Source: Apostichopus japonicus (taxonomy: Eukaryota; Echinodermata; Holothuroidea; Aspidochirotida; Stichopodidae). From it: a DNA stretch of 64,000 bases. The stretch lies in contig NC_092580.1 in assembly GCF_037975245.1 (NCBI RefSeq), positions 20,508,501 to 20,572,500 of the forward strand, given 5' to 3'. Under the pieces are notes generated by a model. The model did not search any database. It saw nothing but the letters and a program-made list of their open reading frames with translations, and was not told where the DNA came from. The position numbers were made by a program, and so were the translations under genes. Positions within the stretch are counted from its first letter, which is position 1. Every line of letters starts with the position of its first letter. Shown in pieces: positions 238 to 30,306 of this stretch.

Positions 238-449
238 CATTCTGTTGATACTGTTATCATTGCGGCAGGTTTGCGTTCCATCAATGCACTGGTTGCTACG
301 GAGACACCACTGGCAGCCATATTTGTTTTCAGCGCACTGTGAGCAGGATGCCAGTTGGGTACAATTGTAAAAGTCAAATGGAACGTAGGCGATATTCCGA
401 CTGTGGTCGGCTTCCTGGTAGTGCAACTGTAACTCAACGGTTCTGGATC
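238..449 (-). CDS. Plexin L exon 7: IPT1 end and PSI2
   Basis: This 212-nt exon (phase 1/0) has acceptor CGTATTCAG and donor GTAAAT. It encodes TVELQLHYQEADHSRNIAY, VPFDFYNC and CSQCAENKYGCQWCLRSNQC, the PSI2 core. It is the last exon of this gene inside the window. Bases 1-237 are intron with no visible feature except a G9 run. Confidence 0.9.
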
Positions 450-3400: not shown

Positions 3401-4095
3401 ACCCATAATATGTAAATTTTCCATATATTGACTTACGAAAACATTCATCTCCTAGTTGAGATACGGATAAGATATTAGAAGCCCAAAAATCAACTGTAAG
3501 CAAACAGATTGTGATGTGACAGTAGTGCATTACTGTACAAAACGACTGTCTTTTTGTTTACTTTTCTTTCTATCATTGTTTTGACCTTGAATTGGGTAGA
3601 ATTCCATGTTTACCTTAGAGGAGGGGGATCGAAACATATTGAACATATTATTATAGATACCTTTTTGTTGAAATAGTCCAACCCTACAATATTGGTAACG
3701 AGATATATTTTTTTTTGCACTCTACATAACGTTTAATGGTGTTCAAAGGTACACAACAGAATGGGATATTAGTCAGAAGGCTGGCAGAGGACAAATCATG
3801 TTTTCCTCTGTTCCTTACCCCAACCCCCCCCCCTCTCCCCCAAAAATAATACAACAGTTCAAAGCAATGATTCCATGAGGACATTGTGCTGTCACGGGTG
3901 GCAATGTCAACACCACTGAATATTGGTAAGACTGATGTTCCACCCTGTCCCCTCCCCACGCCCCACCCCCATCTTACACCTGTGCCAGGAGCCCTGATAA
4001 TCACCAGACCCTACTAAGAGCATTCTCATCTTTACAGTACCAAACCAACTCAGTACATGTGGGCAGTAATTTGGAGGGTCAGAACACCCAGGAAT

Positions 4096-4139
<44 letters not shown>

Positions 4140-4420
4140 AAATGAATATGTAGCAAGTGGTATGACAGATATATATATAAATCAATAAAGAATAACACAC
4201 CAGAAATATTCCACTTCACGACCGGTTTCGTCCTTTTGGGACTCATCAGGCGAAGGTAGGAATCGAACCACGGATCTTCGTGTCACGAACCGAAGTCCGT
4301 ACCACTCGACCACAGTGATTCTACTGGTGTGTTAAAGCGTATAAATTTATACGCCAATGAGTCCCAAAAGGACGAAGCCGGTCGTGAAGTGGAATCTTTC
4401 TGGTGTGTTATTCTTTATTG

Positions 4421-4502
<82 letters not shown>

Positions 4503-7500: not shown

Positions 7501-10500
7501 ACTGCCCTAATTTCCTTTAATTTACATAAAGAAGTTTTGCAATTCATGGAAACAAGCAGCTGAGCTTTTAAAGGGCATGAGGTATTGGACACAAGAATAG
7601 CAGGGAAAAGAGACATGAGAAAATAATCAAACTTCAGTAGGAATAAGCAGTCAACATTGACCCAGAAAAGGAAAATAGGGATGCAGTGTTAAAATGTTCA
7701 CACCTGTGTCTTTAAACCAAAAGAAATTATATATACTAAATTGTTATTTCAAAACTTACGAGCCTTTGAAATCTATAATGCATATTATTTCATTGCTCAA
7801 TCTTTGATTGTCTATTATCCAATGTCCATAACTAATAGAAAATATATACATTAAAGGGAGGGCTTATTTTTCCCCCTTTAACAGTCAGCATATGAAATTC
7901 AACCAGCTTGGAATACTGTGATACACACTAAATGTACAAAATACAGCATTTCAGCAAAGAAAATGTGAAAGACAATTTGAACATATCATACTTTACTTTT
8001 CATAGGGTTTTTTTGAGCCATGATGAATTAGTCTTTTTTCTTCTGTGGGATTCATTCTGTGCATCTCTTTAAGATGAAGATTTAAAAATCCTTTCCCTGA
8101 CACCACTTTCACCACTAACCAACTTTCCACTTTATGGACAGTTGACAGACAGATCGAATCAACTGCCATTGCTGGTAAAACTTCCTTGGCTGGGTGACAA
8201 GATGAAGGAGGGGTGGTAAGAGGCAGTTTTTGACCACAGTCAAGAGAAATTATGGAAGTAACCCACACAGTTGCTCTAAAATGGCAGAGAGTTTGAAGGA
8301 CCCATGATGAGTAATTTGTCACGTTAGACACACTTTTTATACATTATTAGATGGACATAGATGTAATACCCGCTTAGTAAATTGATCGATAGAGTTTACA
8401 AAGCCATATTCGCCTTGTTCTCTTGCGGCCTTCCACAGAGCGCCGATTACAAATTACCAGTCCAGAGTCATCACAAAAGGGATATGACTAAAGTTGGTAT
8501 AAATCTTATACACGATTTTAACAGCAGATTACCCTGCAGGCAAACATGTTAAATAATCAGGAGTAAAATGGACCTTCCATTTACTTTCAAAGAGTAAGTG
8601 AAAGATTCTTCAGGCAAGACTCTCAAGGGGAAAATAGAAGTTAAGTAACTGCACCAGTTCTGAAAACAGGTTGTAATGCATGTATGTGTCTTCAAACTTA
8701 TGCAAAACACATGTGATACAGCTGGACTATGCATTACATCTTTTCTTTTTCTTCCAAATGAAGAGAGGGCCAGCTAGCATGTTTTGCAGGTGTGAGAAAC
8801 ATTGAGGCTATCACACTTTCCTCTGATTACATTAATATTTTAAAATTACAAGTATATTTATATACTTATATAAGTAGATTGGTTTGCATCTATGGTGGCA
8901 TACAGTACAGAGGTGTGTTATGGATTACCATTAGATATATAAATGCAAACTATTTGTCTTAAACAACAACAAAATCTTGCTTAAGACAAACCAACACATT
9001 CGACACTAGAACAACATCACTGTTATTTAAATGTATTTCATGTAATAGTATTCCGTGGTTTGAATGAAGAAGCAAAATGGACACAGGAAGCTGCAACTGC
9101 CCACTTCTCAGTAAATACAACCCCATTCCCAGCTGAAATGATTGTCATCGACACACTTGTTCTCAATCAAGAAGTTCAATTCATATTCTGCTCTCTCCCT
9201 AACCTTTATGCTCACCATATATATACCAGCAAGTCTCCGTCGAACCGCTAAGATTCTTGATAAGATTCTTGCTGTGATACACATAGGAGGGATGATTTAG
9301 TGTTTCACAGGCATGTGAATAAAACCCCTGTCAATATTAATTGCCATCCACACAGTTTAGACTTCATCTTCCCTTAGTGATACAGCAGAAAGGAAACTCA
9401 GATATTTAGTGTTCTGGTTTCATAAAACCTATCTGTGAATGATGGAGCATGAAGACTTATTATGTTTGATTTGCCCAATGGTTTCATAGTCAATGTTAAA
9501 AGGTTACCAGTTCATTCTAAGCACGGTAGAATGAGAGTGCTAAGGTTGTAGGGAGACAGGTAAGCGAGGAGTGAAGTAATTTACAGTTAACAGTACTCCT
9601 TTGGGAAAATCCAAGTGTTAATTTAAGAAACTGGTAACAATGTTGGATGGGTAACCAGTTACCAGGTAACTCAGTGCAAAACAATATACAAGAACCAGGT
9701 CTCTGTCAAAACAAGCTTTTCTTTTAAAGTTTGGAAGCATATAGGAAGGACAAAACAGATTCAAAATCTAACCTGATCCTCAGAAGTGATGAAGATGAAT
9801 TCTCCATCTTCTGAAAGGAGTAAGCCGTTCCTGATGACTGGTGTCTCATGGAGATCAAGACTCTCGTAAACCTCTGCTGAAGAACCGTCCAATCGCAACT
9901 GAGGAGAGAACAATCCTTTATACCGTTACCGAGGTTTTGATGAGATCATTCTTGAGAATCCAAAAAATTAATGATTGTATCATGAAAGGATAACAGAAGA
10001 CCCTGAATACTTCTCACATTTATATTAATAATAACAACATGAAGAATACCAAAATCTGAAACTCACAATGTACAATCCGCAAGAGTTTCAATGTCACATC
10101 TTTACATTTGATCTTGCTCCAGGGAAATGCCAATTGTATCGTTGGTATAATGCATACAATGTGGATATAAAGTGTCTGTAACATTTGCTGAGAAATGTGA
10201 TCGTGAAATGTTTGGGGAAATACTCATTCTGGGCATAATAAAAATTCCTTCAATTGCTCGTTCAAAATTACTTTCATTGATCGTACTAATGACAACTGTA
10301 TGAGTTGTTTTACAATGTTGGGAATGTTACCTTCTTGAAATTGCCACTTTCTCCACCAGTGAATATAATTGGTGTCTCAAAATGCTGAACTGCGGCAACA
10401 GCAGTGATGTAGTTGGTGCTTTCATATACTGGCCTGGCTGATATAATGATGGCTCTATTGTCACCTCCGAGAGGGCTCTGAGTTTCTAATGTATGGCAAT

Positions 10501-13334
10501 AATCTGCTGGTGAACTCTGACTGATGCGGTCGAACTACAAAGTAAATAAAACAATAGGATAATCAATTTATAAACACAAGTTAATGCCTTGATATGTTCT
10601 CTAAAGTTGAGATTTACAATTGTAAACCTCCATCCCATGTAAATTGTCAGTACTGCAGAAATTCTGTCTTACTCGATGTGACCATGGATATTAATGAGAA
10701 CTCAGTAAATAAACAGAATAGATAGGCAATTGAAAAATGAAGTGGTCAAATAACAACAAGGAATGTCTTGGGTTCTAGATAAATTTACTTATAAGTAGTT
10801 AGCTTTGCTTGACCATGCTTCTACTTCGAGTTCTGATTATCAATTTTTTTTTTATCAGAAACCAGAAAGCCAGTTAGCTTTGTGATTCCTTGCCATACAA
10901 TTTGCTCAAATTCAAAATAACTATCTGACTATTGTAGAGCAAGTGAGTTAAATTTTTTATAAGAATTAAGTGAGAATCAGAAAAGATATGTAGCAATCCC
11001 TTGTGGGTATAAATCATGTCATTCACACATAAGGATTTTACAGTATAAAATTTGAAAGCGCAATGTTTCAATATCCAGAAAGAACTGTCTTCCTAAGTGA
11101 AATATAGACTCCAATTTTCATCCAGCAAATCCCTTTAATAATTGATGAGAGTTACATTCTTTATACACTAAGAAATATCTTTGAGAAAATGGCCAATTTC
11201 CCCACCATTTCAGATAACCTATTGACCCTTGAGGAGGGGGGGTGTGCCCATTTGAAATAACCTATTGACCCCTTGAAGCTCAGACGGAGAAACCCTTATA
11301 GGAGGTTTAAGTGCACGTTTAAAGCAAGAGTATGAACTCTGAGGCAGATTCTAATACCTGTATGGCAGTTATGTATTATCGTTAAAAACCTATAGAGCCC
11401 CTTCACAGACCTAAACTGAACTGAAATTGACCAATCTGCGTTCACCAAAAGAAAGTCAAAGCATTGGAGAATTCACAGGTTAATCGTAGCTTTAATTTTG
11501 GAGTTATCATATTTAAAGGGTTTTCAGACTTTGATGCATGTTGACCTCATGTGACCTTTGACCTCTACCAATTTCAATAGGATTCTTGCACTTCAAGCTG
11601 GATCTACATAATACGTATGAAGTTCAAGAACGATGTACTTCTTGTGTTATCGTGTTTGCAAGATTTTCAGACTTTCACTTAAATGTTGACCACATATGAC
11701 CTTTGACCTCCACCAATTTCTAAAGGGCTCTTGTACTCAACAAGCTAAATCTACATACCATTTATGGAAATGAATAAAGATGTACTCTTTGAGTTATCAT
11801 GTTCACAAGGTTTTCAGACTTTGACCTCTGTTGACCCCCAATAACCATTAAACTTCACAGAAAACAATAGGCGTATTGAACTCAATAAGACGGATCCACA
11901 AACAAAGTATGAAGATAATCCACCATTAACTTTTGAGTTACCATAATTACAAGCAAGTGTCATATACATAAACACACACACACACCATCGCATAGATTCC
12001 TTTTGCCTTTGTCAAGGAATCAAAAATACATGGCACCAATGATTTATTATTGTCCAAACTTAATTTGTTCTGTGCATAAAATAATACAGGATTGAAGGGC
12101 GAGGCTTTGCAACTAAGAGTACCCTACTATATGATATGGGCACGCGGGCCACTTATGAATATCCACATAATGTTGCAATTCCTAGAACAATGGCAATACA
12201 ACTACTGGTACCTCTACTTACCAGGAAGGGATTGTTTAAACATTCTCTGGATCCAGCCCAACTGATCTCTGTATTATCTGTTCCCTGTTCAGCACAGTCT
12301 AATCGTCTGTCATAGTATGCTTGATTGATGTCATCTACAGAGTATATACAGATAGCTGATTCAGATGAAGGAGTGGGACTGGTGAGTGACTCTGACTTTG
12401 AAAATGATGCCACCAGTACTTCCTTTACTTCTTCATCTCCATCCAGAGAAAGAGAGGCAAGGTGCGCAGACTGGATCAAGTTGTAATCATCATCGTCGGT
12501 CATTCCACCACAGACAAGAGGAAGTTCAATATAGGAATTAAAGTCTGGATCACCATGACAAAGACGAACTAATTTAGAAGTGTATCTACTTATGGTGCTG
12601 TAATCTCTAGGTTGTGATGCAGCAAAGTAGCTGAACTGACCGCTAGTGAAACCATAAATATAACTGATGTTGAATGGCTGATCTGCTGGAGATCCATCCA
12701 GGATACTCTGGGATACTGTTATTTTAGCATCTTTAGAGGTGACTTTAAATAATTGATCATCTGGTCGATCGCGTGATATTAATCTTGTTGATACCCTTGG
12801 TACATCTCTTAACCAGTCACCATATGATGATGCAACATAAAGAACCTTTTCCGTGGCTCCATTAGCAATAAAGGCAACGGCCAGACCAGATGGTGTATTG
12901 GGTACGACCTCTCGTATTGAATCGCCGTATGTAACATTTAGCCTCCCAGGATCTCTGATGCGACAGGTTCCTTGATAAATACTCCCACATGTGATCAGAA
13001 TATTCTGATGAACTACAATAACTTTATTGTAATTATTTGTAGTAGTCTTTGGTTCCGAACAACTAAATGGAGGGGGTCTACACTGTGGACTGTCATCAAC
13101 AGGACCTGTTTGTTCAGATTGTATTAAATCTAAATCATTGTTTAATTTATAAATGTAATTCAGTCCTCCGATATACAAACTACCATCTCTTGGATCAATG
13201 AATTGATTCTGGAAAACAGAGTTGGAATTAGGAATTTGGAAAGTATGATAATTCTGACTTTTAACCGCCTGAACATTTGACGAAAGCAGTGACAGTATAC
13301 AGATATCCAAAAGCACTGAATGTAAGTTAAGCAT
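238..13334 (-). CDS. Plexin-like receptor, copy L (exons 1-7, partial at window start)
   Basis: This is the gene-level span. The second plexin gene is tandem to copy R and in the same orientation. Seven exons are visible (signal peptide, Sema, PSI1, IPT1, PSI2) with the same phases as copy R exons 1-7. All are open, with no frameshift. The rest, including the membrane segment and tail, lies beyond base 1, so whether L has a RasGAP domain cannot be told. Introns 3, 5 and 6 are much longer than in R (about 3.7, 2.75 and 1.97 kb against 0.93, 0.32 and 0.49 kb). The start is the signal-peptide Met at 13334; an upstream in-frame Met at 13436 is not conserved in R. Confidence 0.9.
2421..2574 (-). 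CDS. Plexin L exon 6: IPT1
   Basis: This 154-nt exon (phase 0/1) has acceptor AATTTACAG and donor GTAAGT. It encodes LTVHVSNLPPDGSLKCEF and MTTVTCDTPGD. It is three codons shorter than copy R exon 6 and has about 45% protein identity with it, which makes it the most divergent of the shared exons. Confidence 0.87.
4100..4138. repeat. (TA)n microsatellite
   Basis: A run of TA dinucleotides in plexin L intron 5, just left of the fold-back element. Only a short unique stretch separates the two. Confidence 0.9.
4177..4426. mobile_element. Fold-back element with tRNA-like core inside a TA microsatellite
   Basis: Arms 4177-4246 and 4357-4426 are inverted copies about 70 bp long with about two mismatches. 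They surround a roughly 110-bp loop. Both outer edges run into TA microsatellite. The loop holds a tRNA-like unit on the minus strand. It lies in intron 5 of plexin L and partly explains the longer intron there. It resembles a MITE or fold-back element; no transposase is present. Confidence 0.75.
4249..4322 (-). repeat. tRNA-like sequence (pseudogene or SINE head) in fold-back loop
   Basis: The minus strand shows a type-2 promoter: an A box TGGTCGAGTGG and a B box GGTTCGATTCC at normal spacing. The T stem pairs poorly (CGTGG against CCTAC), so a functional tRNA is unlikely. The promoter boxes could still recruit RNA polymerase III. Confidence 0.55.
4424..4500. repeat. (TA)n microsatellite
   Basis: A TA run of about 38 copies directly continuing from the right arm of the fold-back element in plexin L intron 5. 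Length in the assembly may be unreliable. Confidence 0.9.
5326..5461 (-). CDS. Plexin L exon 5: PSI1 end and IPT1 start
   Basis: This 136-nt exon (phase 2/0) encodes ECTRRIDSQC, GTSLRWLSNEDDCLVITTVT and the first IPT1 strand. The donor is GTAAGA. It is homologous to copy R exon 5 along its whole length. Confidence 0.9.
5980..6080 (-). CDS. Plexin L exon 4: PSI1, first part
   Basis: This 101-nt exon (phase 0/2) has donor GTAAGT. It encodes ITRVPVEECHEYTTCEECH and DPYCGWCSLQ, the PSI1 core. It is about 79% identical in protein to copy R exon 4, clearly less than the Sema exons. Confidence 0.92.
6100..9370. other. Intron 3 of plexin L, extra sequence absent from copy R
   Basis: Copy R intron 3 is about 0.93 kb. 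Copy L has about 3.7 kb, of which 9383-9772 aligns with R. The rest has no counterpart in the window. It contains a C/T-rich tract at 6286-6360 and several poly-T/A runs. I found no coding exon or clear transposon ends. Confidence 0.5.
9773..9898 (-). CDS. Plexin L exon 3: end of Sema
   Basis: This 126-nt exon (phase 0/0) encodes LRLDGSSAEVYESLDLHETP and LLLSEDGEFIFITSEDQ. It differs from copy R exon 3 at only a few residues. It is the last exon inside the highly similar tract; homology with copy R fades within intron 3 near 9383. Confidence 0.9.
10331..10534 (-). CDS. Plexin L exon 2: Sema continued
   Basis: This 204-nt exon (phase 0/0) is flanked by AG and GT like its R counterpart. It encodes the SPADYCHT, SPLGGDNRAIIISARPVYES and FTGG segments of the late Sema blades. 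The surrounding introns are also nearly identical to those of copy R. Confidence 0.92.
11500..12050. repeat. Intron 1 repeat array of plexin L (about 140-150 bp period)
   Basis: Three imperfect units each contain TTTTCAGACTTTGA or a close form, a TGACC-rich stretch, a line like 'ctcaacaagctaaatcta' and GAGTTATCATGTTCACAAGG or a close form. The array ends in (CA)n and a motif ATCGCATAGATTCC. I associate this repeat type with marine invertebrate genomes. A shorter version lies in copy R intron 1 (28710-29145), where the (CA)n end is missing and exon 1 begins almost at once. Confidence 0.6.
11542..11564. promoter_or_regulatory. Three nuclear-receptor half sites (DR4 plus DR1) inside intron repeat
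   Basis: Three TGACCT half sites in a row are spaced by CATG and then by T. This makes a perfect DR4 overlapping a perfect DR1 in the AGGTCA convention. A second DR1 lies at 11697-11709. In copy R the DR4 (28752-28767) and one DR1 (28895-28907) persist, but the first DR1 is lost. Function is untested; the repeat may carry these sites by descent only. Confidence 0.4.
12222..13334 (-). CDS. Plexin L exon 1: signal peptide and most of Sema
   Basis: This exon has 371 codons from the signal-peptide Met (MLNLHSVLLDICILSLLSSN) and ends in phase 0 after NNPFL at donor GTAAGT. It carries GGLNYIYKL, GSIYQGTCRIR, YIYGFTSGQFSYF, TSKLVRLCHGDP and ICIYSVDDINQAYYDRRLDC. The in-frame Met at 13436 would add 34 residues; copy R has ATT where L has one of the upstream ATGs, so those are probably untranslated. 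Confidence 0.92.
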
Positions 13335-13436
13335 CTGTCTGGTATCAACGTTATATATTTCTGTTGGAACATTAAACATCTTGGTTGATTTCCAGCAATG
13401 AGATCTGTGAAGGAAATTCATATTGACGGCTTTCAC

Positions 13437-15395
13437 TTTTATTTCTCAATTGCAGTACAAACTGTTCATGGGCTTTTTTATTTGGGAGGAGAATTTTCAT
13501 GGAAGTAGCCCATGCTCTAAAGGTCTTAGTATCATACTGTTACATAACAATGGTTATATGTATTAAGGAAAGAGTAAACTTTAACTATAAACATATATTC
13601 CCAAACGCAACAAGGAAAATGAAAATAGATATAGAAACCTATTTAATTGTTATGTTGTTACTATTCCACAATGCAATGGTCACTAAGATATAGTTATACA
13701 GAGTAAAATATTAGAGGACAATATCTTTTTGTCACCTCATACCTTTACAACTTGAACACACTTACTCGTAAGCCAATGAAATTTTGTTTTGTGTAATATT
13801 CTCAATGTTCCGAAACATGTGGTTTATCACACGATTTCATGTATGATTACCGCATAAAATAGATTTTGTGTCACCAAACTATAAATCAGTTTTGCAAGTT
13901 TGCTTATTGCTTATGTAGAATGCAAAGTGAAAAACGTAGACTTGTAGTGACCAAGTTTTGCATTCATTGAATTGCTAGAAATCATCAAATTTCTCCAACT
14001 CATTGTTGGTTTGAACTGGATTTATTTATCGGTATTCATAGGCTATTATTCTCTGTAATCTGTCCTCATTTATCGACGGACATGGAATATTATATTGTTT
14101 TGTGAGATGTACACCATTGTCGATCTTCATGTAGCTATCAGGCAAGTCCCCACTCATGATAACCCTTTACGGAACGCTTATTAACGTTAAGCAGTACATA
14201 TGTCCCAATAGTCACAAAGCGACATACACGGCAACTTCCTGCTCCGATACTTGAAGTAAAAAATACATAGACGTTATATATTCCCCTAGTGTAAAAACAT
14301 GAACCTTTTCCATCACATAAAGCTAAAAATTGCATGTAATTGCTAAATAGAAAAATTTAAATCAAGCGGATCGTTCGTCTTCCCTTTTTTCCTTCTTTCT
14401 TTTCTCGCAAATAGTGAACTGCCTTCTGATTGGGTATCGGAAATGCAGACCCTTGAAAACTGCTTTAAAAATTGCTTAAAAACTGCTTTAGCAGTTTAAG
14501 TTTGGATAAAATCTTACCTCAAAATGGTGGTGCACCTTTTTGGCAATAGTAATTTATAAGAAATCGTTGTTCTGAAAGCTGCGTCTAGATATCTTTGCTC
14601 ATACACATAAGGCGTCACCTTCAGTGTCATATGTATAATAGTTCGTGTTATAAAGAGGTGGATTTTTGCCAGTGCTTGCACAAGGAAGACAATTCAAAGT
14701 GTCATGTAAGTGATACTTGATATTCATATATGTAAATGTTACAAGTACTGCCTATAGGCGTTACAATGACGTAAGCATGTATATGTCACAACAAATTACA
14801 CCTTATTCATCCACATTGTTCATACATATTTATATATATATGTATATATACATATGCCAATTTCTATATATATTAAATGGAAAGAGGAACTACGAATTAA
14901 TAATGACTGAATGCACAGCATTGGTTTTCAGAAGCTTTCGTTTTCTTATTTTACGTTAGATGCTTAGATTCAAAATGGTGTTTCATTTCCAATATTTAAA
15001 GGCAGTTTTGTATACGACTTTCTCTGTGCTGTTATAAAATGTACACCATTTGTAAAAAGAAAAAATATGGAGGGGGCCTGAGGCAAAACATTCTCTCTGC
15101 CCTGTATAAATTAACGATATAAAAAACATCATACATAACAGTACGTGTAGGTAGATATACGTATGTATCTCATATCCAAATGACCAACTTGACGATGGTT
15201 AATGAGAAAAACATTATGAGAAGTCGATCACGCTAGGCTATAAGTACAAGTAGCCTATCCAGTATCATATATATCATAGCTATTTATATTTTATTTCACA
15301 ATTTTTTGGGCGGCTCCGTTTTGTCCCCGAAAAAAATCACTGTCATAGGAGCATAAAATGTGAGTTTGTTTATATGAGAACTTATTTTTTAAGTT
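13437..15395 (-). promoter_or_regulatory. Upstream region of plexin L, duplicated with R upstream region
   Basis: About 2 kb upstream of copy L aligns by eye with 30307-32615 upstream of copy R, with small indels and one transposon missing here. Shared strings include CCGAAACATGTGGTTT, GTACACC-TTGTCGATCTTC and GTCCCAATAGTCACAAA. The 5' UTR and promoter should lie here, but I cannot place a TATA box or start site with confidence. Similarity ends near 15395. Confidence 0.5.
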
Positions 15396-16700
15396 CTTCT
15401 GAACGATCATCATAATCCATACAGTGTAGTCCAGGGTTACAGAAGCGTCTACAATTAGGTCGGGTCCAGAAGGTGATTGTGTCACTTGTTGCACTGTCCG
15501 CAATTTCTCAAGTATACGATAAGTATAAGAAATACACTATTCTTTATTCCATATATTCCCTGCCCCGCATCCACCCCTTCCATATTTTCCAGACATACAT
15601 TCATGGAGCCCGGGCCCCAGGCATGTAGCCCTCCTGCCCACTTCAAATGTTGTCAGGCAAGTTCAAGTAGGCTTTATTCTTTCCATATTTTTCTTACCCT
15701 CTATTTGTCAAATCTATTTTAGTGTAGTTGTACTGTTCGTATGGTAAGAAAAAGCTTGAGAAAAACAAATTTGTTAAACGAAATATTAATAATATTTATA
15801 TATTTCAAATTTTATTGCGATTCAGCTCTGAATAATCGTGTGGATAAGTAGAAAGCCCCCTGTTACCTGGAGTGACGTAAGGTTGACCATCAAAATAAAA
15901 ATTAAACAAAAACATGGATGAACATCTTCAGAGAAACCACTTATTAATCAAATAAATTCCCTTCATTTTCCTAATGCTGAAATTCATTTCAACATAAAAC
16001 ACATTTTGGAAGTAATCTCCATTGCGTTACATGTACAAGCGTTCAGGTTGACATGTCACAATGATATGTTTGCTATCAATGTGGTTTTCATCCGGTTCGT
16101 CTCTCTCTCTCTCTCTCTCTGTGACACCTATACTTAAGACCGTAATCCCGGTCTTCACCATTATCACCACAAAGATTACCATCATAGCTGTCTGTCTGTC
16201 TGTTTATCTATCTGTCTGTTTGTTTATCTATCTATCTAGCTATTTAGAATTTCACTCCTTGATGGTGTCTCAAAATTGCGACCCACTGTCACCCATTACG
16301 GAAAAACACCAATGAACCTAATACCGCAACCAGATTGAACCTGCAATAGTACGTTTGTCGTTTAGTGTTCCAGTCAAAGCAAACAATGCAAGAACAGAAC
16401 AATTCTCACAAACGTCCGAGTCACCAGAAACCGCTAACCATTTGTCAAAGGACTTTATACACAAACCAGAACACAACGTTCCATTCAAACGACTTGCTGT
16501 TGATATAATAGTCAACATGTGAGGGTTACCGGGGGTGGGTGGGTTACAGTCTCTCTTCTCAGAGACATATTCAATTAGAAATAAGATTAATTTAGTAAAC
16601 TCAACAAAAACCTGATTTCATAACATTCTAAAACATGAATAATAGTATGATACAATGTTATGGAACAAATCAGCAGTGTGAAAATCGGTAATGTAGGAGC
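15396..16700. other. Intergenic, between plexin R 3' end and duplicated L promoter
   Basis: I see no gene here. It holds a (TC)n tract near 16099-16122 and a TCTG/TCTA tract near 16190-16240. The sequence outside these is unique in the window. Confidence 0.5.
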
Positions 16701-16705
16701 TAGAT

Positions 16706-16711
16706 TTTATT
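16706..16711 (-). terminator. Candidate polyadenylation signal for plexin R
   Basis: An AATAAA hexamer lies on the minus strand about 285 nt after the stop. It is the most plausible signal I noticed in the 3' flank, but a single hexamer in AT-rich sequence is weak evidence. Confidence 0.35.
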
Positions 16712-16994
16712 CCTGATATGTAAAGTTTTGATTATCAGAAGTAGACGATGAAGAAAAGTTAAAAATGCATTTACTATTTGAACACAACACAAACTTCCGT
16801 ACCATAAAAAGCTATTTACAATTGAACCGGATATTCCTTTCTTTACTTAGGGCACTCTGCCTAACAACTATTTAAGATGTAACTTTTCATCTAATTATTG
16901 GTCTTTGATAATGAAACGACAGCATAATCACACTTCTTGATTAATCCCCTGTTGTATTTCTACTATCGTTGGGTGAATGTGATGGCTATAAGGA

Positions 16995-17669
16995 TTATTG
17001 TTTCTCTTCCTCAACTTGTGTTAAACTCTTTGCAGCTGCATCTTCATTCAGTTTATCCACGGGCGTTGAAACACTATGGTCATTATAAATGCGTTTGCTG
17101 TATTCGTCATCTTCTTCAGAAGTTGTCGGTCTTTGCTGCTTGCGGTCACTCTCGTGCGTCTTCTCGTTTACCCTGCTCATGTTTCTCTTAGGATGTAATG
17201 GTAGTTGTTGCTCTTTCCCTGTGTCAAGGCTGATATCAGGCCCAGATCTATCTTCTTCCTTTGAGCTGGATTTTCCAATATCCGTTGAAACTTTTGACTT
17301 CAGTTGGAACAGTTCAGTTGCTCGAGTTCTCTCTGGAAGTGTTGGTGGTTGTGCATCTGTTGCCGCTGTACTGCCTATAGATAAATAGTCCATATCTTGA
17401 CTGCAATTTGTATGATCACTTACATTATCGTCATCCATTCCTGTTTTTCTGGATTTCTGTCGGGAATCCCTATAATAATAGGTATGGAGAACTGAGAGGG
17501 AACGATTTGTAGCTTTTAAATTATAAAGTACCAAAAGACAAAAGCAGAGGAGTACCACTGTGAGAGCACATGAAAGAATAACAATGATCAAAATAGGTAG
17601 CGCCAGAGTCTGGTCAGGGCCTAGGTATTCCACATGACCTACCACGAAGTTAAGGTTACCGTGCTGTAC
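16995..17669 (-). CDS. Plexin R exon 19: membrane segment, GAP-less tail, stop
   Basis: This 675-nt terminal exon starts with the plexin-like stretch GNLNFVVGHVEYLG. A membrane helix follows (about exon residues 22-49, LALPILIIVILSCALTVVLL and onward), then a 175-residue tail. The tail is Ser/Glu/Lys-rich and probably disordered. It holds YYYRDSRQKSRK near the membrane, an acidic DMDYLSIG (YLSI fits a YxxΦ sorting motif) and PTLPER (fits a class II SH3 ligand). No RasGAP sequence follows. Two acceptors six bases apart (17669 or 17663) are possible and differ by the residues VQ. The next 3.6 kb, up to the copy L start, contains no GAP-like exon that I can recognise. Confidence 0.87.
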   Translation of the reverse strand, partial: VQHGNLNFVVGHVEYLGPDQTLALPILIIVILSCALTVVLLCFCLLVLYNLKATNRSLSVLHTYYYRDSRQKSRKTGMDDDNVSDHTNCSQDMDYLSIGSTAATDAQPPTLPERTRATELFQLKSKVSTDIGKSSSKEEDRSGPDISLDTGKEQQLPLHPKRNMSRVNEKTHESDRKQQRPTTSEEDDEYSKRIYNDHSVSTPVDKLNEDAAAKSLTQVEEEKQ

Positions 17670-20600
17670 CTGTCAATGAACAAGTGCAAATGAAAATAGT
17701 TATGTTGTGCATGTTAATTACTTTATCACGCTTGGCGTTTTGAGGGACGTCATGAAGGCCACACTCGTTATTAATTAGTTTCATTTTTTTGTTTTCACTC
17801 TTTTCTTGTTGATGTTTAACGTTCAACTTCACAAATTGTAAATAATTGAAGTTTTGCCAAAAAAAAATAAAACTTCAGCACAAACGAAACTGTACAGACG
17901 CAGTTACTAATGTGTGTGTTATCCCAACGTAATTTGTCGACATTTTGAAAAATAGATAAGCATAATTGCCTTCTAAGCACTTTTCCATTGATACAATTTA
18001 AATAATATATACCTGTACTTGGTGCACTCCTTCAGATAACTTGGGTGGTTGACAAATCAAATAATTGATGAATAGATTTGAGACAAAACATGCCTTGCCA
18101 CCAATAATGACCGACACATCCTCACTGTTTGAAGCAAGAGTTAAATTGTCTCCCTGTCATAAAGATAAAGATAAAAATAGGACAAGAACAAGGACATGAA
18201 CTCACATTTAGCGTAAAAGACATTTACCAACATGATACAGCGTAAGTTGTGCAGCGTCCTTTGGGGTTATTGATTGGACGCTAGGTAAGGGGAATTGTTG
18301 AACCAACCCTAGGCCTGAAATATTAAGCAAAGTAAAGTAACAAACTAGTTTCAAGACGAAGTGTTCCTAAGATAGGAAAAGCATGGTATCATGTGTATAA
18401 TCAAAAGCAACTTTCGCTTTAATAAAATCACATACTTTACCTCTATCGTGATGTTGTACTGGCCTTGGAATTCGTTAGGTACTTTGATTATATTTTCGGC
18501 TGATGGTAAGATATAGTACACAGGGTCTTCGACAAATTCAAAAGCTGTTTCAAGGCTGCCAGGAAAAAACATTCCAAAGTTGATATAACGCGTCACACCG
18601 TCCATGTACAGACTTAAATTTGACGTCGGTAGTAGGAGAGGGTAGTCAGTTTGGGCAACGGAAATGTTTGGAGACTTGCAAATGAGCTTCATTGTGGAGT
18701 CGGAACAATTGGAACAATCCTGAAAGACAAAGAAAAACAGCTATGGTATTGATAAAAGCAAAAAACAAGCAAATGACTTAAATGCAAGATGTGATCACTT
18801 CGAAAATGGACGGTTTGTACCAAAAGGTAGTGGAAATTTGGAAAGAATATGCATGCTTTGAATTTTTGTAATTATAATGACAGTTTAAATCAAATCCCAA
18901 ATCTTTAAAGCAGACTGTCGCAAAACAAAAATTGCATTTATCTGTCAACCAAGTTGAACATATTCTCCTTGGAAACGTACCCCAGAGACCGTATCAGAGC
19001 CAATTCTCACTTCCAACCGGGCTGTTTGTATGATGTCAAAAGATTCCCCCAGAATAGGCAGATCCAGACCACCACTGTTAACGAATAAGTCAAATAACAG
19101 ACTGATATTAAAGTCACATCACGGCAGTATAAACTATCAAAGAGCTTGAATGTATAATAATAATGTGAAAGTGTATTTATTTCACAATTTAAAGGGCATT
19201 CTGAAGACGGATGTAACACTCAGGTAAAAGTATTCTGCATTAACTAATATTCCTGTTACAAGATGTTACCTTCTTCTCGACTTTGAGCTGTTTATTTTTG
19301 GTACACCATTGTTTTTATTTTTGTTTTTGGGAAACGATCTATTTCTTACAACACCTTGAACTGTCTCACAATTCCCTGCAAATTTTGCACTACCTTCACT
19401 GTGTTATTTGTCGAAGCAGCTGTAACCTAACTATTAGTTAAACTATCTTTTTCTATTAGTGCAGAACTGAACGCGGAATCTCCTTTGATGGGCGTAACAG
19501 CACATATTCAGTAATACGGTAAACATCACTTTAACATTCTCAACATTGTTTTGATATTGCAAACAGGAAAGTTGTGGGATGGAAATCAAGGCTGAATAAA
19601 GAAAAAGTGATACTAACCTTGCAATGGCACTCAGTCTATCAAAACTATCAACGATGGGGTCTCCCAGATACGCAAATGTATCGCCATTATATTCACATCC
19701 CAAATCAAAATTGACAGAAAGTAGTAGATTGTCAGTAACATTTGCAGATCCAGTTCTACAAATGATTTCATCGGAATTATTTCTGTAAAATGAAACATGA
19801 TTAAGAATAAATTCATATTTATTTATTTGCTTAGTGTCCACGCGATCCATTTGGATTCCTATCTAAATCTACTTTGTAGTACCCAGTTTCATAAATTTTT
19901 AAACAATTTATTCATTACTATCATTGCCTAGACTCTACAAATGACGGGCTGAAAGAGCATAGAAACTGAGAAAGATGCTTGCAGTTGGTGCAAAACAAAT
20001 TAATTTTACCGAAGAATTGGAATGAAAAAACTATACCATGCAGTTTACCAACAGGTTTACACACCGATCCGAAAAATAAGAGATACTCACTCTTCTATCT
20101 TACAAGAGTATCCGTCACCGGGAACACAAGGTGCCGTACTCATCATTACTGTCCGTGTCAGTCCCGAGTCTAACTTTGTACCTCTTATGACTAGTCTGGT
20201 ACCTCCTGACCGAGGCCCTCTCGTAGGATAAACAGAAAGAACTCTAGGTCTCTGTGTCGCATAACAAGAAGTAACAAAATTAGAAAATGAAATTTACACT
20301 ATTGATTGAATTAACCAGCACTGTCACATTGTATGACTAAACTTTACCGGGATTTGCAAAACGTTATGCATTTATTGCAGAACACGATGACCAAAATAGT
20401 AAACACTGGTATCAGCCTGAGAATATAACTAGGAAACACCATGTATGTTACACACCATGACATATTGTAGACATTTAAATAGATGTGGTTTGATGGATGC
20501 AAACCTTTACGAGTAAACCTACACACGATGCATTACATCGGTTCAAATTAAAAAAGTAAAGACAAAGCGAAAACCCTGCAGAGGTGCACTATCAAGATTC

Positions 20601-23040
20601 CTCTGAAGGGTGTATTTATATAAAATACTCACCACATAAGAGAAAGTCTGTTCCGATAGAGCGGGAAGAAACTGGTTATTTGAAAACTGAACGACGACTT
20701 TACCCGAAAGAATTTGCAAAATACTTCTGGTGGTGCAGTATACCCTAAAGTTACAGTGAGGATAAAAAATGTAGATATTAAGCACATTATTCTATCCATC
20801 ACAATCGTTGTAATGAAAGGACCCAATTGTTTATAGTATGGCTGGTAATGATATCAACATAACATAAAAGTAATGAATACTTATATCGATTTGGTGAGTA
20901 AAGTGCACTGTTTGATTGTCTTTTTCCAAAGATCTGCTTTGAAACATATCAGCTTACATGCATCATCATCTATCGTGAACATTTGGCTAAGAGGAGCCAA
21001 TTGGGACAATAGCTCTTCTCAAGGGTGTTTATGTAAGTCTAATAAAAACGGAGTCCTGGAAAGAAATTTGCCATATACTCTGTGGCATAGTAAGCTTCCA
21101 ACAGTGAGAAAGTGAGCTGGGGTAGAGTAAGAAAGCCAAAATCATTTAGGGCCGTTTCCCAAAATATTTACTCGTGTGGATGCACTCTGAACAATGTAAG
21201 CATTAGTTTCTGGTTTAAACTGTATATTGTGAGCAAATTGAGCAAAAATGAGCTGACATAGAAACTTACAATTGTGGTGAATTATATTCACTGTCTGTGC
21301 ATGAAATACCGGCCACTGATACTGTCGTGATATCAGAAGGAACGAAACCAAGATTATATCCATTAATGGCAATGCGAGTCCCACCAGACACATGTCCTGA
21401 AGTTGGGAAGAACTAAAACAGAGAAAGAATGATACCTCTATTGACATGGTCCGTTACCATTTTTTATTATGCGGTTTGACACATGATTGGTAGGAATTTT
21501 GCAACGATTAAAATAAAATAAAAACCTGACGCAGACAATGAACTTAATCCAGAGGAGCATGTTTACTAAAAAGTACAACTCTGATACTAAAAATGCATCG
21601 AAAGACATGTGGTTGCTGTATAATTTCATTATATCAATATTAACCTACTTCGAATAGCTGGAGTAGAGGTGATGATCATGAACATAAAGAGGTGTGGAAG
21701 CAAAGACGACGATCACCTTATTTAGTCCAATCAACCCTTTTTAAAACTTTCAAAGTAATGCAAAGTTAAAAATAAAGTTGAATGTGAACCTTACACTGGT
21801 TATTGTTGGGTTAGGACAGGTATTCCCCTGTTCGAGTAATTCGTTAGTTGGACAGGTGTTGGCGTCCATCGGTGATAAACAGTCGTTCAGGGGAGGACAC
21901 CAACTACATCCATAACTCTGGTCGACAATCAAGCACATCCCGCAAGTTGGTTTGCTCTCACCATCTAGTATCGTAACAGCCATTCTGTTACATTTATAAA
22001 TAGTTACTGAAATAAGAAGATTTTGTTAGGTAGAACGAAACATTTACAATAAAGTGTGCTCAGTTAATATGACGAAAGAAATGAAGAGCGTTTGGAACAA
22101 AAGGTGAACTGTAATCCATATCACTTGAATAAATCGAATAAGGGCAACAGGGTGATCATATGGCTCCGGAAATGAGGAAAGCAATTGAGAAGCAAATTCA
22201 TTCTATACGCTTTACATTTGTTCACATCCATTTATACAATAGCTTATTTTATTATTTGCACTATAACATACCAATACACTGAATTTAATAATAAACCGTA
22301 TGGTGGGCCTAACTCTTCTGTAGCTGTATAGGGGAATCCGAAAAGAATTGAACGATTCTGACATGAATCGTACGAGGATTTACCTGTCAGGTTGCCTTCC
22401 ATGTCTATGGGAAAGTTTCCCCAGAAAAAGATTCAACTGTTGATGAATAGTTGTACTGCAAAGAAAACAAAGGTACAGTACTTCAGAACGTCACACAATA
22501 TAGAGCCTGGGGTACAAAAACCAAACGACTTGATCCAATCTCAACCCCAGTCCCATATCATTGGGTTATTATTGTATAATCATGATCATATATCAAGTGT
22601 CACAAGTCCCCAAGAAAGAGAATAAAACCTTCACAGGTGGTTATTATATCTCTCCTATGTCAGTTCGTGAAAGTACAAGAAAAACTATGCATAATATCTT
22701 GCGCTGGTTCTTTAGAACGCATTTTTTAAGTGGTAACAACACATTAAGGATTCAAAGCCTTTGTTTTGGTCTCTAAGTACTTTACTTATTCAGAGCATTG
22801 CGTTAGAAAGCTGAATAACAGCGAGTTGAACTTATTGTGAACTTACCAAGTTAGTCTCACATCTGATTTGGTCATCTACAATACTTGCTGGTATTATGTG
22901 TGTTTGTAGTCCTGTGTACTGAATTTGACAGCTGAATTGGAACGACTGCAAATGTTGAAAATAGGCTCAGAGGATTATAGCATGACTGATTGTATTTAAG
23001 GTGAAGCAACACTTATATTCCTGACTTACAACTGTGACAG

Positions 23041-23111
<71 letters not shown>

Positions 23112-26100
23112 GAGTTGGCAAATCCAGAATAGTGCAAAAACGTCCAGCCTCCGCCGGGATTCGAACCCAGTCCTCCTGCTTTATTTGCGGACACCCTAAC
23201 CACTAGGCTATGGATGCTGATTGTACGTCCAGAGGTTCGAAACAGGTAAGGAAGGTCTTAATACCACTGCAGTCGTAAATGTGTATAACAGCGCAGTACT
23301 GCATTGAACAGAAATGATAGTTAGCTTGGAATACAATATGTCGTACAATTCTCTGCTAAAGATATGGATACACCATAGCATATGTAGTTATACCACATAC
23401 GCCAAACACCAGACTATATCTGATTTCAACAAATTCGGAAGATGGTTAATTATTATTAGAACTTACATCATTTGGTAAATTAATTCCTTCAAACTGTAAT
23501 TCTTGACTTTGACCGGCAGGAATCAACACTTCCTCAGTTGTACGAATCAGTGGACAGCTCTGAAGAAATATGACATGTCACAGTATGTTACGACGGATAT
23601 TTCTTTACGCTCTTGGACAAGGTTTGTCTGTTGGGGAAGGGGACTCACATATAATGGTTAGAGAGCCTAACCTTTCAATCCTAGAAGGGTTTCCAGTCAG
23701 CAAAGACAAGGCAGCTTGTCTTTGCAGAATTTGATCCTGTTATGATCGAGACGTCAGATCTTCTAACTTTCATATTTTCCTCAACAGGCTTTTCACATGA
23801 TGCAGTTTGTTCACAGTCTTTCACTTTTTGATAACCGATACTTGTTACTTTTAGTACTATTAAAGGGTTGTGGATTTCATTCTTCTGTTTTTTTGTTTAC
23901 CGAATGTGAGGGGCAGACCTAAACATCTAATATGTCAGTCTTGTTCTTCTAAAGGTGAAGGAAATTACACAATTTACTTCGAGTGGAAGCTATACATACA
24001 GGTAAGAAAGTGTAAGAAGAATAGCTTACAGTTGTAGTGGTAATACAATCACTTATGGAACAGTTCTTTTTTTCATCAATGCACTGGTTGCTATGGAGAC
24101 ACCACTTGCAGCCATATTTGTTTCCAGCACATTCAGAACAGAACGAAATAATGGCACAATCATAAAACTCAAATGGAACGGAGGCAATTGTATGGGTTTG
24201 TTCATTCTCTTCATAAAGCAGCTGCAATTCCACAGTTAGAAATCCTGAAAAGAATTTAACAACTTTTAAAAGAGTTTTCATCATCAATCATCAATCATAA
24301 ACAGTATATGTGTTAGATCACAGGTTTATCCTCGATTTCTTATTTTTCATTGAATACAAGTAGTATTCATAACATAGTAGTAACCTTATTGTAAATAATA
24401 TAAATCGATTGGAATCTGGCTCTTATCCTCTTCTATCATATGTTTGCAGTTAAGGGTGAGCCCATGCAAAAACCTGTCCAGGGATGTTGGTTCCTGAATT
24501 TATCTGATTCGGTAATAGTAATTGAAAATTATACTAGCAAACATCAAAAGGTGTGTTTCTATAATTAGATGAATTTTACTCTAAATGCAAAGCAGCAGTA
24601 TTAAAAATAGCTCCATACAGGTTTCAATACGTATTGTCCAATGTCCCTTATGTTTGAAATATAAACATGATTTGGCAAAATAAAATGGTCTTTGGAACAC
24701 TTTGGAAGCTGACTGGCGATCGGGCTATAACCTCACCAGTGTTTTTAACCGTAATATTTACGGGTGTATTACAAGTAATCGTTGATATGTCCGCCATGAT
24801 TATCACTAGTTTTGACCTGTGCAGAGTCTCACCCTCCAGAAATTTACAAGTCAGGCTTCCGCTGGAGATGGGTGGCAGATTTGAGACAACGACTGTTAAC
24901 TGCAAAGTGTGCAAAAGAGAAAAATATTGTTTTACAAATGAGCTGGTATAAGCAGTTTCTTGGTCTAATACATGGATTGATGTCTTTTCATACTGCTGAT
25001 GTTTTCAATAAAGTTCATTGGAACATAAGGTCGTTGTTGAACATTCCATTTAAATAGATTACAAGAGCTTTTACATATTTATAACAGAGGTCTACATTCA
25101 ATCTTATATAGCTTTCCCTACAGTCTATATTACCCTTCAAATAGAGGAAATTGTCAATTTGGACTTAGAAAGTAGAACAGTTTCTCTTATCGCTCATCAA
25201 ACTCATTATCTTACATTAGTGGTGGTTCTGGAAGGAGCAAACTTTGGAGTAACTCCAGTTATCTCCAGACAGTCATCCTCACTGGAAAGCCATCTGAGGG
25301 AAGTTCCATTCTGTGAGCCTTGACATTGTGAATCTATTCTTCTGGTACATCTGTTGAGGCAAACGGAAACAGATACATGATAATACTACCTTCTCAACGA
25401 AATTGCTCAGGTTTTACTTTACTATCTAAACTAAATCTCATACGTTTCCCTGATGGTTGATACATTCTCTTAACTGCTTTATAAACTACAATGAAAGTCA
25501 GCATTTATGTTGCATATTATTCAAGAATTTGTTTGAAACTCCTTTCAACATTTTTCGTTTGCATTAAATTGGCAGTAAAACCAAACGTTTGCTCTTGATC
25601 GTCATTCCAAAGAACGACCGTTTCATATGAATTCAGAAGCTCTCCACCTACTTTAATGTTCATTTATAATAACACTACAAAACTTATAGGATGTATACTA
25701 TTCCATCGCCCATGCAAACATCTTTGTCAACTTTCTGTTTCATGTAATAATAAATCCTGCAATAATAGATCCTGCAATGACCAATTTTCGTCGTAAATCG
25801 AATACGAAGTAGATTCGTGAAAACAATGATCTGCACTATAATAAAATTTAAGAGCATAGTGTTATGAAGTATCCAAATTCATCGTCTACAATGGTATTGT
25901 CATGTACATAACGTACTCTGTTTGCAAGCTGCACCATCCACAGTATGGGTCCCCCGCCATGTGACACTCTTCACACGTTGTAAACTTGTGGCATTCTTCC
26001 ACTGGAACTTTTGTTATCTGAAAGTGCGACAAATCATGAACCAAGTTTCATTCTTGTTAACAGATCAGTTTTAATTAGAACTGTTACTGTAATAAAACTG

Positions 26101-29100
26101 TTTATTAGAATGATACATTCGGTACTTCCAATCATTCCAACACCCCCCCCCCACCCCCGCAAACCCCTCGGCCGCACCACTCCCACCAAAACTTTTCTAA
26201 ATGGGCTACCATTATTTTGCTCCATTTTTTCCACTGCAACTATTGTTATATGAAAACGTGTAAAAAATGACTTACGTTAGTGTTATTGATCAAAGTAAGA
26301 TCAGAATTTGTCGGTAAGGAATAATATATTTAAGTTATCACCATTCAGAATCATCGTGCAAATAAAGTGGCCAACATTCTATTGAACAATGGCTCATGGA
26401 ATATTCTCCCAATAATCTGCTATTAGATAATAAGTACAACTTCCTCTGGCAATATTTTGTTTTCAATTTCAAATAAATATAATGTAATATAAATATAAAT
26501 ATATCATGAGAAGTGTTTGCACCGCCAGCTTTCAATTCAAAAGTGGGTCCCTGAATTGGTACAGGAGAAAGGTAACAATGGACATTTAGTGATCTGATTT
26601 CATAAAACCTATACTGTGAATTATAGAGTATGAAGACTTAGTATGTGAGATTTGCTCAATGATTTCACAGTCAATGATAAAAGGTTACCAGTTCATTCTA
26701 GACACGGTAGAACGAGAGTGCTAAGGTTGTAGGGAGGCAGGTAAGCGAGTAGTGACGTAAATTTACAATTAACAGAATTACTTTGGGAAAATCCGAGTGG
26801 TAATTTAAGAAACTGGTAACAATATTGGATGAGTATCCAGTTACTAGGTAACTCAGTGCAAAACAAAACGCAAGAATCAGTTCTCTCTACAAGCTTTTCT
26901 TGTAAAGTTTGGAAACATATGAGAAAGACAAAACAGAGGCAACATCTAACCTGATCCTCAGAGGTGATGAAGATGAATTCTCCATCTTCTGAAAGGAGTA
27001 AGCCGTTCCTGATGACTGGTGTCTCATGGAGATCAAGAATCTCGTAGAGCTCTGCTGATGAACCGTCCAATCGCAACTGAGGAGAGAACAATCCTTTATA
27101 CCGTTACCGAAGGTTTTGATAATTCATGAGAATCCATAAAATTAATGATTGTATCATGAAAGGATTACAGAAGACCCTGAACACTTCTCACATTAATGTT
27201 AATAATAACATTATGTAGAATATAAAAAAATCTGAATCTCACAATGAACAAACCGTGGGATATTCAATGTCACATGTGTGCATTTGATCTGGATCAAAGG
27301 GAATGCCAATTGTATCATTGGTATAAAACATATTACGGAGATACAGTGTCTGTAGCATTTGCTGGTACATGATGTTGAGCACGATCATTATATGGTCGTG
27401 AAATGTTTGGGGAAATACCCATACTGGGCATCATCAAAATTCCCTAAATTGCTCCTTCAAAATTATTCTCATTTATCGTACTCGTGACAACTGTATGAGT
27501 TGTTTTACAATGTTGGGAAAGTTACCTTTTCAAAATTGCCACTATATCCACCAGTGAAGAGAATTGGTGTCTCAAAATGCTGAACTGCGGCAACAGCAGT
27601 GATGTAGTTGGTGCTTTCATATACTGGTCTGGCTGATATAATGATGGCTCTGTTGTCACCTCCGAGAGGACTCTGTGTTTCTGGTGTATGGCAATAATCT
27701 GCCGGTGAACTCTGACTGATGCGGTTGAACTACAAAGGAAATAAACCAATAGAATAATCAATTTATATACACAAGTTAATGCCTTGATATATTCTCTAAA
27801 GTTGAGATTAACAATTATAAAGCTCCATCCCATGTAAATTGTCAATACTGCAGGAATCCTGTCTTATTTGATGTGACCATGGATGTTAATGAGAACTCAG
27901 TAAATAAACAGAATAGATAGGCAATTGAAAAATGAAGTGGTCAAATAACAACGAGGAATGTCTTGCGTTCTAGATAAATTTACTTATAAGTATTTAGCTT
28001 TGCTTGACCATGCTTCTACTTCGAGTTCTGATTATCATGGGTTTTTTTTTATCAGAAACCAGAAAGCCAGTTAGCCTTTTGATTCCTTGCCATTCAATTT
28101 TCTCAAATTCAAAATATCTATCTGACTATTGTAGAGCAAGTGAGTTAAATTTTTATAAGAATTAAGTGAGAATCAGTAAAGATATGTCGCAATCCCTTGT
28201 GGGTATGAACCATGTCATTCACTTATAAGGATTTTACAGTATAGAATTTGAAAGCAAAGTGTTTCAAAATCCAGAAAGAACTGTCTTCCTATCTGAAAGA
28301 TAGACTACAATTTTGATCCAGCAACTCCCTATAATAATTGGTGTTATATTGTTTATACACTTAGGAATATTTTTGAGAAAATGGCAAATTTTCCGCCATT
28401 TCAGATAACCTTTTGACCCCATGAGGAGTGGAGCGGGGAGCAGGGGTGGGAGGGGGGTTGCCCATTTGAAATAACCTGTTGACCCCTTGAAGCTCAGAGG
28501 GAGAAACCCCTATAGGAGGTTTACTTCCCCTTTTTAAGCAAGAGTATGAACTCTGAAGCAGAATCTAATACCTCTTGCCAGTTATGGTTTTTTGTTAAAA
28601 CCTAGAGCCCCTTCGAAGAACTAAACTGAACTGATTTTGACCAAATTGCGTTCACCAAAAGAAAGTCGTAGCATCGGAGAATTCACAGATTAATCGTAGC
28701 TTCTATTTTGGAGTTATCATTTGTAAAGGGTTTTCAGACTTTGATCCATGTTGACCTCATGTGACCTCTACCATTTCAATAGGATGATTGCACTTATCAA
28801 GCTAGATGTACATACAAAGTATGAAATAAAAGAAAGATGTACTTCTTGTGTTATCATGTTTACAAATTTTCAGACATTCACTGTTGACCACATATGACCT
28901 TTGACCTCCACCAATTCCTAAAGGGCTCTTGTACTCAACAAGCTAAATCTACATACCATGTATTAAGATGAATATATATGTACTTTTTGAGTTATCATGT
29001 TCACAAAGTTTTCAGCCTTTGACCTCAGATCTGTTGATCCCATTAAACTTCACAGAAAACAATAGGGTTCTTGTACTCAATAAGTAGGATGCATATACCA

Positions 29101-30261: not shown

Positions 30262-30306
30262 CTGTCTGGTAACAACGTCATCTATTTTTGTTGGAACGGT
30301 GAACAT

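Follow-up and report, generated by a model that had tools for sequence, protein, structure and literature searches.

The window analysed here is a stretch of 64,000 nucleotides from Apostichopus japonicus (C20:20508501-20572500; C20 coordinates are those of the whole contig, all others those of the window), and it holds on its minus strand a plexin-type gene, A, and the first exons of a second one, B. Searching the genome (671,581,487 bases in 35 contigs of one assembly) with the terminal exon of A gave 4 matches among the 15 best candidates, which were those scored; all 4 are open, lie on one strand and are 100% (A), 99% (T3), 96% (B) and 86% (T4) identical to the query. They belong to a tandem array of 4 genes, which follow one another along the minus strand in the order A, B, T3, T4 with an intergenic spacing of 3.5-3.6 kb (Table 1). 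Among the scored candidates, the ~175-residue tail predicted from this exon is found nowhere else in the genome. On the plus strand, head-to-head with A and 41 kb apart from it, lies the neighbouring plexin P (about C20:20580171-20641017), which we call complete in the sense that its Sema, PSI/IPT, membrane, juxtamembrane, RBD and RasGAP exons were identified individually and unspliced, the counterpart of exon 18 not being located.

Table 1. Coordinates of the array genes and their features (window positions, or whole-contig positions where prefixed C20)
Feature	Position	Strand	Basis
Gene A, 20-exon RasGAP-less plexin type, frame broken in exon 10	16995..30306	-	gene model, AG/GT at every internal junction
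Gene A, model ends	C20:20538806-20525495	-	model ends
Gene A exons 1-3, signal-peptide-like start and Sema, near P including introns	26951..30306	-	A versus P alignment, dS 0.22
Gene A exons 1, 2, 3	30306-29152, 27729-27526, 27076-26951	-	gene model
Gene A exons 4-19, PSI and IPT/TIG repeats	18013..26017	-	gene model; Pfam PSI/TIG taken on sister T3
Gene A exon 10, 72 nt versus 91 nt, frameshift, in-frame stop	22384..22455	-	alignment
Gene A terminal exon 20: membrane-proximal residues, membrane helix, ~175-residue tail, stop	16995..17669	-	model, genome search
GTAAGT in tail, possible splice donor, also in B	17418..17423	-	alignment
AATAAA poly(A) signal, 283 nt 3' of A stop	16706..16711	-	alignment
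A-B interval, no cytoplasmic plexin domain found in the three minus-strand frames	13380..16994	-	PF08337 search, tblastn, Pfam
Gene B, model ends	C20:20521879-20498550	-	as aligned to A
Gene B exons 1-7 as modelled	238..13379	-	open frame
Gene B exons 1-7, singly	13379-12222, 10534-10331, 9898-9773, 6080-5980, 5461-5326, 2574-2418, 449-238	-	
Gene B exons 8-20, outside the window	C20:20507995 to about 20498495	-	
Gene T3, model ends	C20:20495025-20479494	-	as aligned to A
Gene T4, model ends	C20:20475897-20458471	-	as aligned to A

In our model of A the terminal exon follows 19 others, not the 18 counted in the initial annotation. That annotation had correctly described the exon as running through the membrane helix into the tail and a stop. 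The exon is preceded by an AG acceptor, stays in frame with exon 19 and ends with the TAA at 16997-16995. Counterparts of the poly(A) signal lie 283 nt past the stop in T3 and 286 nt past it in B, and T4 lacks one. In B, T3 and T4 the frame is open from exon 1 through exon 20, and the proteins predicted from the first Met have 1490, 1473 and 1486 aa, respectively. Exon lengths are equal in A, T3 and T4 apart from exon 1 (1155, 1158 and 1164 nt, in that order), exon 10 and exon 20 (675, 675 and 653 nt), and those of B deviate also in its P-like exons 6, 7 and 9.

The copies carry different marks of damage. In T4 the donor of exon 18 is GC, 15 nt are deleted, and a -1/-8 pair in the tail puts about a dozen codons out of frame; B and T4 are each one base short near the stop and extend 18 residues beyond the end of A. 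A comparison of 52 cysteine columns, outside exons 10, 18 and 20, gave six that vary: T3 is without one exon 7 cysteine and T4 without one in exon 6, both kept in P and the other copies, another exon 7 cysteine is found in neither B, T4 nor P, and three columns differ between P and the array. Among the candidate receptors B, T3 and T4, the one with the fewest such marks is B. Past the stop of T4 there is an insertion of ~680 bp (C20:20458409-20457729), GA-rich where aligned, and below T4 lies the fragment of a fifth, decayed copy (C20:20455789-20453492) that has an exon 1 interrupted by stops and parts of exons 2 and 7.

A plexin-type ectodomain in the predicted proteins

Pfam analysis of the T3 protein identified TIG (9.5e-25), TIG_2 (5.8e-16), Sema (1.1e-11), PSI (3.4e-10, in two stretches) and TIG_plexin (2e-9), which make up a Sema, PSI and IPT/TIG ectodomain; at E<=0.1 it showed no domain of the cytoplasmic plexin type. 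Residues 41-1123 of the T3 query align to the plexin-A4 structure (E 5.7e-125), and the best matches among solved structures are plexin-A4, -A2 and -A1 (5.7e-125 to 2.6e-109), with plexin-B1 (4.7e-48) and MET (8.3e-38) behind them. The B, T3 and T4 models combine this plexin ectodomain with a short, domain-less cytoplasmic part, as a RasGAP-less plexin would. A neuropilin-like C-terminus (PF11980) was rejected, the match falling on the membrane stretch with 17.9 bits for exon 20 and 15.3 bits for T3 against a cut-off of 28.5. Elsewhere in the genome, Sema-like open exons 30-32% identical to exon 1 of A occur at C19:30255137-30278090 and C16:27487360-27572295, perhaps from semaphorins or Met-type receptors.

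Exchange with the neighbouring plexin

The similarity between the array and P changes along the genes. Over exons 1-3 of A, introns included, the pieces that align with P are 74-91% identical, and the A-P dS (dN/dS, w, and its components are Nei-Gojobori counts throughout) rises from 0.22 in this block to 1.13 in exons 4-9,11 and 2.58, a saturated value, in exons 12-17,19; T3 and T4 give 0.17-0.18, 1.06-1.20 and 2.35-2.38 for the same blocks. B, introns included, resembles P as far as exon 11 reaches (pieces from intron 3 onwards are 79-90% identical), with a dS to P of 0.13 in exons 4-9,11 and of 2.73 downstream of exon 11, where it is array-like. The dS blocks and the hybrid structure of B thus make it likely that an old 3' lineage and P-like 5' parts were brought together in two or more exchanges. 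The Sema block has a w of 0.45-0.59 against P, which fits a relaxed or changing ligand contact. A partial second copy of the exon 11 end lies within B at C20:20503797-20503753.

Signs of constraint and decay in the array

Over the ectodomain without exon 10, w ranges from 0.35 to 0.62 in the six pairs of copies, and in exons 12-19 alone from 0.33 (A-B) to 0.98 (T3-T4). Between B and P, exons 4-9,11 differ by 24 synonymous and 21 nonsynonymous changes (w 0.22), where 44 nonsynonymous ones would be expected with a neutral B and an even clock (P=1e-4); with an uneven clock, P becomes 0.07 if 8 of the 24 synonymous changes fell on B and 0.48 if 6 did. We then pooled the private changes of each copy and compared them with the neutral share of synonymous to nonsynonymous. 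The counts were 24:20 (A), 6:13 (B), 8:16 (T3) and 12:20 (T4) in exons 1-3; 4:9 (A), 7:12 (T3) and 14:25 (T4) in exons 4-9,11, with B left out; and 4:3 (A), 10:9 (B), 3:9 (T3) and 2:5 (T4) in exons 12-17,19. Pooled, they amount to 32:32 in A (p=1e-6), 16:22 in B (p=0.008), 18:37 in T3 (p=0.052) and 28:50 in T4 (p=0.004), and neutrality fits T3 and T4 in exons 12-17,19 and B in exons 1-3. These counts point to purifying selection on B, on T4 and, prior to its breakage, on A, and to borderline constraint in T3, the weakest case; the strong signal of A mostly predates its breakage.

For the tail, the four copies pooled give 10:16 synonymous to nonsynonymous changes (w about 0.43, p=0.034), a count that leaves out the last codons and the shifted stretch of T4; unmasked pairs have a w of 0.85-1.32 with T4 and 0.37-0.53 among the others. 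A and B differ at 9 of 518 positions in the tail, at 5 of 300 in the first 300 nt past the stop and at 93 of 592 in the next 600 nt, and in introns 17, 18 and 19 at 14/155, 5/72 and 23/340, respectively (the A-T3 pair is too close to be informative and T4 has its insertion past the stop). Because the adjoining 3' region is equally low, gene conversion may explain part of the low tail divergence.

The array might alternatively consist of dying partial duplicates without present function, with a tail that arose by accidental read-through and with A just further along. We regard this as possible, if rather unlikely. In its favour are the broken frame of A, the fifth remnant with its stops, the single cysteines lost in T3 and in T4, the GC donor and tail frameshift pair of T4, and private changes in exons 12-17,19 that look neutral in both T3 and T4. 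Against it are the 20 open exons of 3 of the 4 copies, the pooled synonymous excess of A, B and T4 (borderline in T3) and the similarity of the A and B terminal exons, which drops past the poly(A) signal in bins of 300 and 600 nt; the pooled tail w of 0.43 points weakly in the same direction.

A 19-bp deletion in gene A

Exon 10 measures 72 nt in A and 91 nt in B, T3, T4 and P, the alignment showing a 19-bp gap. Consequently, the reading frame of A ends after residue 780, N-terminal of the membrane helix, and skipping exon 10 does not rescue it, since a stop then follows residue 764. The initial annotation had assigned a complete ectodomain to A and described it as a receptor; neither description fits the gene in the present assembly, where A is unable to make a membrane receptor because the deletion puts a stop before the helix. 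We infer that A is a recently broken or null copy which would produce at most a secreted N-terminal fragment, and the mark of constraint in its private changes means that it probably broke recently. A deletion of this size can be missed when a single copy is read, and the finding is the array rather than copy A.

An assembly or haplotype artefact, with A intact in the species, would be another explanation of the gap, and an improbable one. The deletion is seen in one assembly; against an artefact, 19 bp is atypical for a long-read error, and a published chromosome-level assembly of Apostichopus japonicus was built with PacBio HiFi and Hi-C, according to PMC10344927, so that HiFi reads would lie behind the present sequence if the genome is the same.

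The cytoplasmic tail

No Pfam family reaches its cut-off on the tail, no solved structure is related to it at E<=1, and 76% of its residues fall within the set AEGKNPQRSDT. The initial annotation had drawn attention to a YLSI (YxxPhi) sorting motif, a PTLPER SH3-type motif and several tyrosines. We compared the motifs with 20,000 shuffled tails, and the two arguments fared differently: YxxPhi arises in 73% of the shuffles and for this reason says little, whereas at least one PxxP SH3-type motif appears in 8% of them, the actual tail has two (PTLPER and PLHPKR), and both PxxPxR-type motifs are kept in B, T3 and T4 (the second as PIHPKR in T4). Seven tyrosines were counted in 179 tail residues, and scans for ITIM, YxN and dileucine motifs were all without match. 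An origin as an exonised intron of P was rejected: the first 47 nt alone match the membrane exon of P, other matches being short and not significant.

Two PxxPxR-type motifs retained in 4 of 4 copies, the seven tyrosines and the pooled tail w of 0.43 (p=0.034) could indicate an active module, through which adaptor-coupled receptors would signal via SH3 proteins and tyrosines instead of RasGAP. We give this reading a slim chance, given the frequency of YxxPhi and, to a lesser degree, of PxxP-type motifs in the shuffles, the lack of ITIM, YxN or dileucine matches and a tail without a Pfam domain above cut-off or a solved structure.

RasGAP and RBD exons

A genome search with PF08337 (Plexin_cytopl) gave 23 matches among the 41 best candidates, which were those scored, and the minus strand of the array and its surroundings has none of them; within the 234 kb studied there are six, all in P on the plus strand. 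This HMM search for the GAP domain, suggested in the initial annotation and with P as a positive control, thus agrees with its claim that the RasGAP/RBD region is missing. Likewise, when eight GAP/RBD pieces of P were compared with the 234 kb by tblastn, P alone fell below E 0.03, the next best hit having 0.037, and in the control 7 of the 8 pieces reached the plexin at C20:4.645 Mb below E 1e-3. Translated in its three minus-strand frames, the 3.6 kb A-B interval gave no cytoplasmic plexin domain in Pfam analysis, a lone FERM_F2 match being sub-threshold (E 0.019, 15.3 bits versus a cut-off of 26); the 10 kb below T4 gave no such domain either, with one sub-threshold Sema fragment from the remnant, and the same method detected Plexin_cytopl and Plexin_RBD in P. 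The B-T3 and T3-T4 intervals were covered by the PF08337 search and tblastn. RasGAP (PF08337) and RBD (PF20170) were accordingly not found in the array after the terminal exon by any of these searches, and as the loss is common to four tandem genes it is not a local annotation gap.

Splicing in cis or trans to RasGAP exons, the outcome that the initial annotation had named as contradicting it, is without genomic support and hardly credible: the internal GTAAGT of the A and B tails, which we ruled out as a donor to such exons, is GTAAAC in T3 and GTTAGT in T4, no GAP/RBD exon was found downstream of the copies (PF08337 search and tblastn, with Pfam scans below A and T4), and P sits on the opposite strand.

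Other plexin-like loci came to light in these searches. The one at C20:4645061-4768014 (minus) is a probable plexin with RasGAP exons and, ~120 kb off, a Sema exon 38% identical to that of A; C20:6596984-6938015 and C20:22072329-22222338 hold divergent Sema and plexin RasGAP exons, possibly from more plexin genes.

Discussion

At the sequence level, the locus comprises a four-gene array with three open frames and a common tail, a deletion in A and mosaic exchange with P. The reading that we consider, on balance, probable is a tandem birth-and-death family of plexin-A-type receptors in which the RasGAP/RBD half has been replaced by a disordered-looking tail of ~175 residues and which would act by sequestering semaphorins or by non-productive pairing. 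The open copies B, T3 and T4 would sit in the membrane via their helix, their P-like Sema domain would bind the same semaphorins as P or similar ones and, without RasGAP, they would be unable to act on Rap GTPases; they would then sequester ligand from P or pair non-productively with it, and the tail, perhaps through its two PxxPxR motifs, would govern adaptor contacts or the amount of receptor at the surface. Competition for ligand or non-productive pairing would be the simplest action because the Sema block is close to that of the signalling neighbour P. RasGAP-less receptors of this kind are probably semaphorin binders without signalling, decoys or co-receptors, and for B, T3 and T4 decoy, co-receptor or adaptor-coupled roles could all apply.

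With the ectodomain and helix kept, the enzyme absent, tandem copies and Sema exchange with a neighbour, the array would amount to a natural decoy or dominant-negative system, in which the role of the plexin ectodomain could be tested separately from RasGAP. A bolder version, which we put forward tentatively and hold to be more doubtful than not, interprets the region as a 'paired receptor' locus for semaphorins, in which the signalling plexin P and, head-to-head with it, the RasGAP-less array, with Sema blocks matched by repeated exchange and a membrane-near ectodomain and tail that are old and distinct, would together form a copy-number-tunable brake on semaphorin signalling. If true, this paired-receptor locus would be a genetically encoded semaphorin brake in an animal group known for regeneration.

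Comparison with known systems

The usual view of plexins ties them to their RasGAP half. The array shares with a complete plexin-A type such as P the Sema, PSI and IPT/TIG ectodomain and the membrane helix, and differs from it in having neither RasGAP nor RBD and a tail of its own. Paired activating and inhibitory immune receptors are encoded by neighbouring genes with common ectodomains, differing tails and sequence exchange; the layout is similar to that of the array, in which pairing is inferred, and the protein family is different.

Among the matches listed in open-licence PMC for plexins with echinoderms, sea cucumbers, decoys and gene conversion, no title concerned a tandem array of RasGAP-less plexins, and the word "plexin" is absent from the main text of the Holothuria glaberrima genome preprint PMC13228809. 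As described in a passage of PMC1838422, truncated human plexin-B1 was proposed as a decoy, its short form being surface-bound and partly secreted; those truncations are forms of one gene, whereas the array consists of separate genes with a membrane helix and their own tail. Passages of PMC6374515 report a starfish plexin expansion and the echinoderm Met-LP receptor tyrosine kinases, which join a plexin ectodomain to a non-RasGAP cytoplasmic part and one of which lies beside a starfish plexin gene. Met-LP has a kinase domain, and a kinase tail of this type was rejected for the array, with no kinase match in T3 nor in the stretches below A or T4.

A further likeness is with Amphimedon queenslandica Plexin-A1 to -A4, which have short intracellular parts with no conserved domain, as a passage of PMC6374515 describes them. 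Likened by description, not by sequence, these sponge plexins and the array are alike in a short, domain-less cytoplasmic part; in the array, the tails are related among copies and the genes are mosaic with a complete plexin. RasGAP-less plexins are thus already described in a sponge, and the present case differs from them as a tandem array of genes that have a tail of their own and form a mosaic with the plexin next to them.
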